From a virus: 23,845 nt of DNA. The stretch spans positions 1-23,845 of IMG/VR virus record IMGVR_UViG_3300042453_001256; one strand, 5' to 3'. The translations under genes and the position numbers were made by a program. Below are positions 5,978 through 10,525 of the stretch, piece after piece. Under the pieces are notes generated by a model, which was not told the DNA's origin, did not search any database, and saw nothing but the letters and a program-made list of their open reading frames with translations. How positions within the stretch are numbered: the first letter of the stretch is position 1; every line of letters starts with the position of its first letter.

Positions 5978-6340
5978 TTACGCCAAGAATTTAAGTTTGT
6001 AGAGCGTGGAGTAGTACAGCGCCAATATTTCATCGATGATGTTCTGCAACGGCGTGCATTCCTTGTCGACGACCTTGTACCGGGTGTTTTCGATCTCTTT
6101 GACCTGATCTTCCAAAAACTCGACCACGTTGTTGGTCTTCTTGGCCGACTGCAACGCAATCGGCCCGATCAGGCCGTACTTGCCTTGATAGGCTTCAGCA
6201 AAATCGTCTGCCAAGTCAATGACGCCCGTGTAGAACTTGTTCAGCGCTTTGTGCTTGGCGTATGACCTAGTGTTGAGGTGTACCGAATGGGTGACATCCC
6301 GCGCCAGAAAAAGCTGCCCGATAAAGACTTCGCAGGTCAT
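5978..6340 (-). CDS. Dps/ferritin-like small protein (DUF5856-like)
   Basis: A 120-aa all-helical protein whose ATG at 6340 overlaps the portal TGA (ATGA). Residues 15-60 (DVTHSVHLNTRSYAKHKALN, then KFYTGVIDLADDFAEAYQGK) resemble DUF5856-type phage proteins as I recall them. The spacing His18-x11-His30-x14-Asp45-x3-Glu49 equals the ferroxidase-ligand spacing of Dps (E. coli His51, His63, Asp78, Glu82), and HLNTRS resembles HWNMRG of Dps. The protein is shorter than Dps (about 167 aa). Metal binding or oxidative protection is thus possible, but not shown; a structural role that reuses the fold is the main alternative. Confidence 0.7.
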   Translation of the reverse strand: MTCEVFIGQLFLARDVTHSVHLNTRSYAKHKALNKFYTGVIDLADDFAEAYQGKYGLIGPIALQSAKKTNNVVEFLEDQVKEIENTRYKVVDKECTPLQNIIDEILALYYSTLYKLKFLA

Positions 6341-8442
6341 TGCGGCATTCCTTGTTCAGGCGGCATCATCATCGGCTGCTCGGGCATGAAGTTCTGCGGC
6401 ATAGGAGCTAGATTGCCTAGATCCATCACGTCGCGCAAGGTCTGGATGACGACCTCTTGGACCTGCTCCGGCGACATGGCCGCTGACATCGCCTGAATCC
6501 GTCGCGTCTCGGCCTCATACGCCTTGATGTCGTTAGCCTGCGACTTGATCGCAATATCCTGCGCTTCCATCGACTGATTGACGTTCTGCAACAGCCCCAT
6601 CATCTGCTGGAGCTGCCCGTTCAGCGCCTCGATCTGCTGGTTGGCCGCCTGGATCGCCGGGTCGTCATCGTCTTGCAGCAGTTTGGGGTCGATCATCTTC
6701 TTCAGACGCGCTGCAAGCTCCTGCGCACCAGGCCAGTCCATGTTCTTGACGAACAGGTCGCCAGCAGCCATCCACAACTGCGGGTTGCCTTGCAGGATCT
6801 GACCCATCGCTTCCATCGACTCCTGACGCTTGGTCATGTAGCTAGGACCGGTCGTGACCTTGACGTCGTACTTGCCGACGCTGGGGTTGTAGATCTTCTG
6901 GATGACGATGCCCTGCTCGTCGGTAAGCTTTGTGACCGCTTGCTGTTGGCTGGGGTCAATGATGGCTTGGTCAACTTCACCGTCAATGCCGATAATCCGC
7001 GCAATCCGACGGGTGTCGTAGATTTTGGGAATCAGGTCAATGATCTGGCGCGTGATGTAGCGGATAGCACGAGCCAGGTTGTCAACGTAATGGAACGTGC
7101 CGGTGTTGCTCTGCTGCTGCCGGGCAAGAATGGCGCGGCCTGAGCGTTCGTTCGATGACGCGCCCAGACTGGGGTCGTACTGACCCGTGGTAGACTTCAG
7201 GTCGTCAGAAGCCCCCATTTTGGCCTGTATGAGGCCCGTTTGAGCCATCGGAGGAGTAGACCTCTGCGGCAGCGGCAGAGGCGCTCCTGCGCCGTCTGTA
7301 GCGTCTGGATTGACCTCCAGATACGGCCAGTTGTTGACGTTGGCCGTCTTCCACTGGTGCTCGTAGCCTTCAAACTGCCCGCCGTAGCCAATAAACGGTG
7401 CTTTGGGGGCGAGCGCAAGCATTTCAGCCTCTTGGCTGACCCAGTAGTTGTAGAGCCGTTGGGCGTCCTTGGCGTTACGCACCAAGCCTGAAATTTGAAC
7501 GTCGCCGTCGACTTCGTACTCGTTTCCGACCACTCGGACGACCGGAATGTATTTGCCTGGCCAATCGCGCTCTTGCAGGATCTCAAAACCGTTGGTTTTG
7601 ACCCATTTCACCTGCTTTCGGTCGACTTTTCGCGTCCGAATGGGGCGCAGGCCCATCTGTTTCATCTGTTTATCTTGCGGGTCGTCGGCAAAAAACGTTT
7701 GACCGTTCGGATACAGATTCAAATCGACCTGTTTGTGCTCGTAGTAAAAGTATTCAGCGATGCGGATGGTCATTTCTGCCACCCACTGCGTCAAATCTTG
7801 GTCGCCCACGCCTTGCGCCATGATAGACGTCACAGGAGAGGCGTTCGGGTACTCGCGGTGGAACTCTTCTTTGGTGATTTCTTCAGTGATAAAGCAATAC
7901 TGGGCGTCAGCACCGCAAGGGTCTTGGATCATTGGATCCATGTAAACCGAAAACGGGTTCCGGACTCGGCCGATCTTGATGTCTTGGTCAAAACTGTCGT
8001 CGTCGCAGTATTCCGTCAGCAGCCGAATGTAGCCTTCGCCGTGGACGACTTGGTTTTCGCACGCGGTGTCGTAGGCGACGTCAGCGTCAGACAGATACTC
8101 GATGTGGCGGACGATGCCGTCCAGCACTTCAGCCATCTCGACGTCGGCGTTGTCGTCAACCGGAATGACTTTGCCGCTAGGACGGTTTTGGCGTTGGTCG
8201 TTGGTGACTTGTTTAACGTGCTGTGGAAGCTTGTTGATGGTCAGGCAGGGTCTGGCATTGATTGTCTGCCCTTGAGCGTTCCCACGCGTTTTTAAGACGT
8301 CTGCGGGCCATTGCCAGTTGTTGTCTGGCGAGCCTGCCATGAACCGAAGATCGTCAAGCTGATCCTGACGGCTGTCTGAATGCGCCGACATCGCCACCCG
8401 CAGCCGCGTTCGCATCGTTTCAAGGACGTCTTTTTCTTTCAT
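6337..8442 (-). CDS. Portal protein, P22 gp1 type
   Basis: A 701-aa protein forming the dodecameric ring at one capsid vertex, through which DNA is packaged and ejected. The length and the N-terminal pattern (DDLRFMAGSPDNNWQWP, then RPCLTINKLPQHVKQVTNDQ) are characteristic of the P22 portal family. RNPFSVYMDPMIQDPCGADA, about residues 180-199, is another typical block. The C-terminal about 110 residues are helical and Gln/Met-rich, matching the long barrel helices of P22-like portals, and end in a low-complexity Pro/Met tail. ATG 8442 overlaps the stop of a 48-aa gene, and its TGA overlaps the next ATG, so translation is coupled on both sides. Confidence 0.92.
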   Translation of the reverse strand: MKEKDVLETMRTRLRVAMSAHSDSRQDQLDDLRFMAGSPDNNWQWPADVLKTRGNAQGQTINARPCLTINKLPQHVKQVTNDQRQNRPSGKVIPVDDNADVEMAEVLDGIVRHIEYLSDADVAYDTACENQVVHGEGYIRLLTEYCDDDSFDQDIKIGRVRNPFSVYMDPMIQDPCGADAQYCFITEEITKEEFHREYPNASPVTSIMAQGVGDQDLTQWVAEMTIRIAEYFYYEHKQVDLNLYPNGQTFFADDPQDKQMKQMGLRPIRTRKVDRKQVKWVKTNGFEILQERDWPGKYIPVVRVVGNEYEVDGDVQISGLVRNAKDAQRLYNYWVSQEAEMLALAPKAPFIGYGGQFEGYEHQWKTANVNNWPYLEVNPDATDGAGAPLPLPQRSTPPMAQTGLIQAKMGASDDLKSTTGQYDPSLGASSNERSGRAILARQQQSNTGTFHYVDNLARAIRYITRQIIDLIPKIYDTRRIARIIGIDGEVDQAIIDPSQQQAVTKLTDEQGIVIQKIYNPSVGKYDVKVTTGPSYMTKRQESMEAMGQILQGNPQLWMAAGDLFVKNMDWPGAQELAARLKKMIDPKLLQDDDDPAIQAANQQIEALNGQLQQMMGLLQNVNQSMEAQDIAIKSQANDIKAYEAETRRIQAMSAAMSPEQVQEVVIQTLRDVMDLGNLAPMPQNFMPEQPMMMPPEQGMPQ

Positions 8443-8587: not shown

Positions 8588-8740
8588 TTATTTCTTTTTA
8601 GCAGTTTTGGCAGATTCTTTAAAGTCCTTAGCCGTCGGCGCGCCTTTGGCGCCCGGCTTTCGCATCTTTTCGCCGCTGCCAGCAGCTATGCGCTCGCGTT
8701 TTGCGTTGATATTAGCGTAAAGACCAGGTTTCGTTGCCAT
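8588..8740 (-). CDS. Small basic phage protein (50 aa)
   Basis: A 50-aa protein starting at ATG 8740, one base after the previous TGA, and ending just before the 48-aa gene. The sequence MATKPGLYANINAKRERIAA, then GSGEKMRKPGAKGAPTAKDF, is a conserved-looking basic pattern found in small phage proteins. Six of its final eleven residues are lysine. I would not start at the longer upstream frame, because that would run through the neighbouring gene. Its function is unknown; its position between terL and portal suggests a packaging-associated role. Confidence 0.72.
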   Translation of the reverse strand: MATKPGLYANINAKRERIAAGSGEKMRKPGAKGAPTAKDFKESAKTAKKK

Positions 8741-8741
8741 G

Positions 8742-8999
8742 TCAGCACTTCCATCGTTTGAGCGCCGCTTTGGCGCGTTCGCCATCTTTGGCCTTGGCTG
8801 CTACCCCACCCATACGAGCGCAGAAGCTGGCTTTGCGGCCCTTGTCTGCTTCCGTCTTGGGGCTGGGCGCAGGCGCTTTCAAGTTGCTGCCTGTCTCGCG
8901 GTTGTACTTCTCCCGCCCTTTGGCGGTCAGCCCGGCACCTTCCTTGGTCGGCAGCTTTTCACCGCGCCCCACCGACAGACTGACGGACTTTTTGCTCAT
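8742..8999 (-). CDS. Basic phage protein, DUF6321-like
   Basis: An 85-aa protein with ATG 8999 overlapping the terL TGA (ATGA), which fixes the start; a farther upstream Met would lie inside terL. It begins MSKKSVSLSVGRGEKLPTKE and contains GLTAKGREKYNRETGSNLKA and KGRKASFCARMGGV, and ends ALKRWKC. This combination matches the phage family I know as DUF6321. It has two cysteines (the SFCARM Cys and the last residue) and a strong positive charge. A DNA- or RNA-binding role in packaging is an inference. Confidence 0.75.
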   Translation of the reverse strand: MSKKSVSLSVGRGEKLPTKEGAGLTAKGREKYNRETGSNLKAPAPSPKTEADKGRKASFCARMGGVAAKAKDGERAKAALKRWKC

Positions 9000-10525
9000 G
9001 CGCCCATCCATCCGGCGGCTTGGCTGTTGCGGTCAGAGTAGGCGACAACGCGGTCAGGCTTGTAGGACGACTGACGCGAGGCGACCGGGAACGCGAACGT
9101 ACACGCTAGCGCGTCTGCTGCGTCCGGTGAGGCTAGCCCTCTTGATTTCATGTCCTTCTTGCTCTCCAAGAAGATCGTCCCGGCCGAATCCGGTTTGGTC
9201 TTGGGGCCGGTAAAGTCTGACTTCAACTGCCGATCGTGGGGGATGCTGCCTGACTTAAGCCACTCGCGCATTGCGCCCCACAGCTCAGCCCGCTTGTTGC
9301 CCCACATAATCGGGTTCTTTGACTTCCAACCGAAGTTTACCCCACGCACCTTATACCGTTGTTCCGTCAGCCGGTCAAGTATGCCGTAGCCCAGCCCACC
9401 CTCGTCGATCACTGTCAGCGTCGGCCTGTACTCCTCGATGGCGTCGATGACGTGGCCCACTGTGGTCATGGTGTCGTCGCCCCGGTACCGCTTGATGTGC
9501 AGCAGGTCGCGCCCTTGGCGCACCACGATCACGGTGCTGTCGGCGCCTGAGCGCGCCGGGTCGATCCCAATCACAATCGGCGCGTCCGCGTCCTTGTACC
9601 GGGGTCGTTGGGCGGCCTCGTCCACCAGTTGCGGCGGGATGAACTGGTCGTCGCCCGCGCTCGGAAACTCCCCGTACACCTCAATGCGGGCCTGCGGGCT
9701 GTCGCTGCCGTACTCCGCAATGATCTGCTCGTAGATCGCCTTGTCCGTGTCCTCGACGTCGCGAGCGTCAATGTGCTCCGAATGCCAGAATTCCCGCTTG
9801 GAATGGAAACACTCGAAGAAATAGCCTTGGTTGCGCCGAGGGTTGCTAAAGGCCATCCAGAAGCGGTTCGGCGTGTTTTCTGTGAAGAAGCCTTGGGCGA
9901 CGTCCCAAATTGGGTCAGGAATGCCTGACGCCTCGTCGAACACCAGAAACACCCCGTCCACGTTGTGCAGACCGGCGTAAGCGTCCGGGTTTTCTTCCGA
10001 CCAGAGGCGCCCCTCGATCGACCAAAACCGCGTGCCTTTCTTTAGGTCGCGCTCCACGATCTCAGCCAACCACTTGGCCGGGCTGACCCGCGTTGCGCTG
10101 ATTTCGAACCAATGGCTGTTGATGAGGAGTGCCAGCCACTTGGTGATCTCCGACCAGGTGATCGAGCGGAGCTGCGCCTCGCTGTTGGCCGACACGATAG
10201 TGGTGGCACCGATGCGCGTGGACAACATCCACAGCACGAGCCAACTGACCAAGGCCGACTTGCCAATCCCGCGACCGGAGGCGACCGCGCTGCGAAACAC
10301 CTTGTAGGCGGCGGCGTTGTCGTTGTTGCGGATGTGCTCTGCGATCTTGCGCAGCAGGCGGCGCTGCCACTGACGCGGGCCTTTGTGGTGCGCAAGCGGC
10401 GTGTTGGGCTGGCCCCAAGGAAACGCGAACAGAACAAACGCTTCAGGATCGTTCTTGAGCTTGGGGGACCAGAAGCGCGTCATAAGCGCCTGCTCGTCTG
10501 TCGCTGAGTAGATTGGTTGCTGCAT
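8996..10525 (-). CDS. terL: Terminase large subunit (packaging ATPase and nuclease)
   Basis: A 509-aa motor that drives DNA into the procapsid and cuts concatemers. Walker A is SGRGIGKS at residues 83-90, Walker B is VFLVFDE at 192-198, and a C-motif-like segment follows (FSNPRRNQGYF, from 226). The C-terminal RNase H-fold nuclease has acidic residues in VIGIDPARSGADST (Asp322), TLTVIDEGGLGYG (Asp374) and SPDAADALACTF (Asp468, Asp471). ATG 10525 overlaps the preceding stop as TGATG, and its own stop overlaps the next start. The length is normal for the family. Confidence 0.95.
   Translation of the reverse strand: MQQPIYSATDEQALMTRFWSPKLKNDPEAFVLFAFPWGQPNTPLAHHKGPRQWQRRLLRKIAEHIRNNDNAAAYKVFRSAVASGRGIGKSALVSWLVLWMLSTRIGATTIVSANSEAQLRSITWSEITKWLALLINSHWFEISATRVSPAKWLAEIVERDLKKGTRFWSIEGRLWSEENPDAYAGLHNVDGVFLVFDEASGIPDPIWDVAQGFFTENTPNRFWMAFSNPRRNQGYFFECFHSKREFWHSEHIDARDVEDTDKAIYEQIIAEYGSDSPQARIEVYGEFPSAGDDQFIPPQLVDEAAQRPRYKDADAPIVIGIDPARSGADSTVIVVRQGRDLLHIKRYRGDDTMTTVGHVIDAIEEYRPTLTVIDEGGLGYGILDRLTEQRYKVRGVNFGWKSKNPIMWGNKRAELWGAMREWLKSGSIPHDRQLKSDFTGPKTKPDSAGTIFLESKKDMKSRGLASPDAADALACTFAFPVASRQSSYKPDRVVAYSDRNSQAAGWMGA

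Follow-up and report, generated by a model that had tools for sequence, protein, structure and literature searches.

Gene organization at the locus

The window, by which we mean the whole stretch of DNA analyzed here, is an IMG/VR virus record of 23,845 bases. Its minus strand carries a P22-like head module composed of the terminase, two small basic proteins, the portal and a gene of the DUF5856 family (Table 1), followed beyond the DUF5856 gene by a glycine-rich tail-fibre-like protein, small genes, a scaffold protein and a P22-like coat protein. A replication module (primase, DNA polymerase and exonuclease) is located farther along the window. Between the terminase and the portal, the minus strand encodes two small proteins rich in Lys and Arg (8588-8785 and 8742-9011), which match phrog_16028 and phrog_10346, both PHROGs without an assigned function.

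Table 1. Coordinates of the DUF5856 gene, its partner gene and the codons discussed in the text
Feature	Position	Strand	Basis
CDS, Dps-like mini-ferritin (predicted; DUF5856 / PHROG 858), 120 aa	5978..6340	-	ORF, Pfam/PHROG matches, AlphaFold2
P22-like portal protein, upstream partner gene	6337..8442	-	PF16510 E 5e-171; phrog_156
ATGA overlap: portal stop TGA 6339-6337 and start ATG 6340-6338	6337..6340	-	Sequence; similar overlap in most relatives
His21 codon, counterpart of Dps His51 (HP-NAP His25)	6278..6280	-	Conservation and two profile alignments
His30 codon, counterpart of Dps His63	6251..6253	-	Conservation and two profile alignments
Asp45 codon, counterpart of Dps Asp78	6206..6208	-	Conservation and two profile alignments
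Glu49 codon, counterpart of Dps Glu82	6194..6196	-	Conservation and two profile alignments
His18 codon, aligned with the additional His in HNFHW motifs of the HP-NAP type; variable	6287..6289	-	Conservation, PDB profile alignment
Asn34 codon, site of the acid in most Dps (E. coli Asp67); fifth ligand not retained	6239..6241	-	Alignments

The start codon of the DUF5856 gene overlaps the portal stop codon, and this ATGA arrangement is consistent with translational coupling of the putative mini-ferritin gene to the portal, as a preliminary description of the locus had claimed. Such overlaps are widespread among relatives. The first 80 loci of close relatives were inspected, 76 of which had enough upstream sequence. 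In 75 of these, a long ORF lies upstream and its stop codon touches or overlaps the start of the gene, through ATGA in 50 cases, by one base in 20 and by a slightly longer stretch in 5. On viral contigs, a portal match ends less than 200 bp from the gene in 72 of the 76 loci that have a portal match within 3 kb. Among genome contigs, close relatives were observed on only two MAG contigs, where they adjoin a similar portal, suggesting that both contigs are phage or prophage sequence. The portal-like connector that the gene overlaps in L176, a distant lineage, is of another type (phrog_332); in lineage L109, a small gene separates a connector of the phrog_332 type from the DUF5856 gene. Other neighbors were recorded at individual loci. 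A GroES-like co-chaperonin gene lies directly 5' of the DUF5856 gene in L120 (L120:2432-2980) and directly 5' of the portal in DSL-LC05 (L082:3561-3809), and in L178 the gene for a radical SAM domain protein, a type of iron-sulphur enzyme, lies upstream of the DUF5856 gene (L178:1244-2656).

Family membership and distribution

The window protein matches DUF5856 (PF19174 in Pfam) over positions 1-94 of 94 with 86.9 bits, against a cut-off of 34.6 (E 2e-24), and PHROG 858, named "starvation-inducible transcriptional regulator", over positions 15-128 of 129 (E 1.8e-27). All 56 members of our family alignment (A2) match DUF5856 as well. The family includes T4 rI.-1 (also MobD.6), and in the Straboviridae, T4 among them, the gene is positioned directly behind rI. 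The genomic context is therefore not uniform across DUF5856/PHROG 858: the gene is portal-adjacent in the window, follows rI in T4-like phages and lies in a small cluster of virion-protein genes in Vi01-like phages. We found no support for the reading as a transcriptional regulator, a name that derives from PHROG and RefSeq.

Of 50,697 phage records searched by tblastn, 1,398 contain a relative, T4-like and jumbo phages among them, and depositors have already named some of these proteins ferritin-like protein (Munch) or starvation-inducible DNA-binding protein (121Q, BF). Together with the proposal of a virion ferritin in 2024 (PMC10892097), this spread contradicts the initial expectation that a virus-borne protein of this kind would be unusual. 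That related phage proteins carry such annotations, and that one relative has been called a virion ferritin (PMC10892097), is thus already known.

Conservation of the putative ligand residues

The preliminary description had pointed to His18, His30, Asp45 and Glu49, whose distances of 12, 15 and 4 residues equal those of the ferroxidase ligands of E. coli Dps. All four residues are present in the window protein, and when all ORFs of 60 codons or more in the six frames of the window are considered, the exact 12-15-4 pattern matches nowhere else. The pattern arose by chance in 26 of 200,000 shuffles of the same protein (1.3e-4), or at a frequency of 6e-4 when the first spacing was widened to 9-12. 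As the motif was chosen after the fact, its rarity alone is weak evidence and the decision falls to conservation, which ruled out a chance pattern.

His21, His30, Asp45 and Glu49 are invariant in all 144 homologues (29 of 29 after an 80% identity filter), whereas His18 is kept in 134 (24 of 29 after the same filter). No column other than these four is invariant in the 56-member alignment. Some of the patterns used for retrieval included ligand residues, and the comparison was therefore repeated on 15 sequences obtained mostly by tblastn, without motif selection, from T4-like, Ackermannviridae, Caulobacter, jumbo and megaphage records. Here too these four residues were invariant, together with Leu116.

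The spacings also identify the first ligand. Those of 15 and 4 between His30, Asp45 and Glu49 occur in 56 of 56 members, and the distance from His21 to His30 is 9 in 54 of them, 12 in L141, the exact Dps value, and 13 in L112. The two longer spacings indicate that the gap falls in the AB loop and that His21, not His18, is the counterpart of Dps His51. His18 was rejected as the first ligand, because some relatives carry Arg, Lys or Gln in its place and none departs from His21. As judged from the alignments, the first putative ligand is His21, the spacing is 9-15-4 and the exact 12-residue distance is coincidental. Of the pattern originally described, the residues and spacings are thus present and His30, Asp45 and Glu49 stand as conserved positions, but His18, which is variable in 10 of 144 homologues, gives way to His21. 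The same description had offered His21 as an alternative, aligned with a gap, and this version agrees with the data, the AB loop being three residues shorter than in Dps.

At the position of Dps Asp67 the window protein has Asn34, and nearly all members of A2 carry Gly, Asn or Gln. An acid (Asp or Glu) is kept there in T4-like and jumbo members, whereas Gly or Asn occurs in podophage, Caulobacter-phage and Vi01-like members, so that the family may comprise two biochemical subtypes distinguished by the residue at position 34.

Predicted fold and relationship to Dps

AlphaFold2 predicted a confident four-helix bundle for the window protein (pLDDT 95.1, pTM 0.89), with helices at residues 3-23, 27-55, 72-90 and 96-119. 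Residues 56-71 are coil in the model, so the short BC helix of Dps is predicted to be absent. Helix A begins at residue 3 and the pI is 6.3, leaving no basic tail, and the model is one bundle to which neither a tail nor a receptor module is attached. Foldseek ranked Dps first with a probability of 1.00, though with E-values of only 0.04 and above. VIA-align gave Z scores of about 12 to 14.0 against Dps (2.2-2.7 A over 117-120 residues) and of about 12 against bacterioferritins, and Z scores of 12-14 can be attained by helical bundles through their common arrangement and are not proof of relationship. A model of T4 rI.-1 (NC_000866 58819-59205; L084:8820-9206) has the same fold (pLDDT 91.6), and this protein possesses all four ligands, as His33, His42, Asp57 and Glu61, plus an acid at the Dps Asp67 position. 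The window protein, a direct member of the same family, thus shares with it both the predicted fold and the four invariant residues, and the name "starvation-inducible transcriptional regulator" given to T4 rI.-1 looks like a Dps-derived misnomer.

Sequence comparisons provided a further link to Dps. With the window protein as a single query, HP-NAP was the first match among PDB sequences (E 0.04). With the A2 profile, the top 13 PDB matches were all of the Dps type, HP-NAP again being the best (9.9e-6), and the alignment placed His21, His30, Asp45 and Glu49 on the HP-NAP ferroxidase ligands; this result was reproduced with another subset of sequences. No bacterioferritin or 24-mer ferritin was evident among the significant profile matches. 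In hhalign, the family scored 39.1 against 25 cellular Dps (E 4.5e-6), whereas ten column shuffles did not exceed 14.4 and the reversed profile reached 15.8. Masking the four ligand columns lowered the score to 21.1 with the register unchanged, and masking His18 in addition lowered it to 14.7. This decrease indicates that the sequence link rests largely on the site, for which reason the predicted fold is needed as second evidence; the ligands are nevertheless not the sole link, since the match with the four columns masked keeps its register and exceeds the shuffled and reversed controls.

Other helical matches (Med21, syntaxin and ISL3 transposase) were discarded as weak, lacking the ligand register or below the cut-off. 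The window protein gave no match to PF00210 at E 1 and none to the NCBIfam Dps models, to which one family member had a weak match (Dps, E 0.033), and a scan of the viral contigs with E. coli Dps returned no matches.

On the whole, fold, topology, ligand register and profile agree on a relation to Dps, as far as sequence and model can indicate. Two outcomes that would have spoken against the original proposal, another fold or ligand positions lacking conservation, were not what we found: the predicted fold is a four-helix bundle with Dps as the closest fold, and the His/Asp/Glu ligands are conserved with His21 in place of His18.

Comparison with known ferritins

In common with E. coli Dps, HP-NAP and B. 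subtilis MrgA, the window protein has a predicted four-helix ferritin-like bundle and His-His-Asp-Glu ligands in the same order and at the same helix positions. It differs from them in its length (120 aa versus 144-167 aa), its shorter AB loop, the lack of a predicted BC helix and of a basic tail, and the presence of Asn34 in place of the acid four residues after the second His. A DNA-binding basic tail is found in many, but not all, Dps. Bacterioferritins and mini-bacterioferritins, which have an intrasubunit diiron site, possess a similar bundle, and the mini-bacterioferritins are also short; unlike them, DUF5856 has no conserved ExxH pair. An intrasubunit ferritin-type diiron site was accordingly rejected, as His21, His30, Asp45 and Glu49 are the only invariant residues. 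Phage-encoded Dps-like enzymes with a proposed role in iron or peroxide handling have been described in Lactobacillus phages and Gratiaviridae (PMC6669764, PMC8008677); they were called DPS family or Lactococcus-like DNA-binding ferritin and are set apart from DUF5856 by description.

Taken together, sequence and predicted structure identify the window protein as a Dps-like, apparently ligand-complete mini-ferritin of DUF5856 and not a canonical Dps. We use "Dps-like" rather than "Dps" because of Asn34, the lack of a BC helix and a basic tail in the model, and the lack of PF00210 and NCBIfam Dps matches.

Relatives in virions

Homologues with all four ligands have been detected in purified virions of three lineages. 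Mass spectrometry of CBB virions detected CBB_169 with 3 peptides (26.3%; PMC5259590). LIMEstone1 ORF78 was found in virions with 3 peptides (28.2%) as a protein of 13.15 kDa, in agreement with our computed mass of 13,149; a putative late promoter precedes the gene, and a counterpart was stated to occur in ViI virions (PMC3296691). Sajous1 gp217, which we identified by sequence as a DUF5856 member, was represented by 10 spectra in virions and was predicted to be a ferritin by Phyre2, and its authors proposed a Ferrojan-horse role in entry (PMC10892097). These detections rest on few peptides and leave room for contamination. Unlike the window phage, the three are large myoviruses, and their proteins share only about 24-38% identity with that of the window.

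Possible functions

The reading that we favor, with a probability of roughly 60%, is that of a Dps-like mini-ferritin with inter-subunit Fe(II)-oxidising sites. His30, Asp45 and Glu49 are all on helix B, and the 15 residues between His30 and Asp45 correspond to about 22 A, a distance at which a single subunit cannot supply a joint site, so that two subunits would be needed, as in Dps. We infer that the invariance of both ends of helix B reflects an antiparallel dimer, again as in Dps. Two subunits would pair antiparallel along helix B, and the interface would hold two metal sites, each formed by His21 and His30 of one subunit and Asp45 and Glu49 of the other. The metal would be iron: the sites would bind Fe(II) and oxidise it, consuming peroxide or oxygen, and Fenton chemistry in the vicinity of the phage DNA, both replicating and packaged, would thereby be damped. 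The protein would be translated with the portal and hence produced alongside the head proteins, and in the window phage a few copies would probably enter or attach to the particle. A wider proposal, which we regard as tentative and on balance doubtful, is that many tailed phages, including T4, make a reduced ferritin with Dps-type inter-subunit sites, and that the version found in the portal-coupled clade becomes part of the head and accompanies the DNA into the host, protecting the genome from iron and peroxide.

Among the alternatives, the one to be taken most seriously, although we consider it unlikely, assumes a Dps-derived fold with a non-ferroxidase metal site, in which a structural or regulatory Zn, Mn or single Fe holds the dimer together and the protein acts through contacts with other proteins, its target in T4-like phages being lysis inhibition beside RI. 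The absence of the fifth acid in the window clade would agree with this, as would the position of the gene behind rI in the Straboviridae and the slight prolongation of lysis inhibition on plasmid overexpression of T4 rI.-1 (Golec 2010, as reviewed in PMC6832632), a mild effect and the only published phenotype of rI.-1 that we found. However, exactly the Dps ligand set is strictly retained, and relatives are found in phages without rI, the T holin and rIII, such as RaK2 (PMC3622015), as well as next to the portal and in virions, which makes lysis control unlikely as the common function. A role of the bundle in head morphogenesis or packaging without metal chemistry, with the portal coupling serving stoichiometry, would account for the conserved portal overlap in the podophage clade and for the gene behind a phrog_332 connector in another lineage. 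It leaves unexplained why only residues of the metal-ligand type are invariant, and many relatives are distant from head genes (in T4, Caulobacter phages and jumbo phages), so we judge it improbable. Least probable by our estimate, and very much so, is a Ferrojan-horse mechanism in which iron is displayed or handed over at the host surface by a virion ferritin, allowing the particle to exploit iron uptake systems. It was proposed for a virion member of DUF5856, Sajous1 gp217, but Salmonella deficient in tonB and feoB were infected about equally well (PMC10892097); in addition, the window gene is coupled to the portal and not to tail fibres, and the predicted protein is a lone bundle lacking a tail or receptor module.

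For a family labelled as a transcriptional regulator in databases and as unknown in Pfam, the favored mini-ferritin reading offers a biochemical hypothesis that is concrete and names four residues. It covers T4 rI.-1, which has a mild lysis-inhibition phenotype and no mechanism, as well as virion proteins of three phage lineages. If these proteins are ferroxidases, the handling of iron and peroxide would be widespread, either during lytic infection or in the particle; the ferroxidase hypothesis is directly testable in T4.

Matches outside the family

PF23965 (DUF7293) matches four DUF5856 members of A2, with E-values down to 1.3e-4, and may be a related unknown family. Structural matches in BFVD were also observed in giant viruses of eukaryotes (Pithovirus LCPAC404, A0A481ZC29; Fadolivirus, A0A7D3V608), which suggests, at the level of predicted structures, that Dps-like proteins similar to DUF5856 exist outside phages too.
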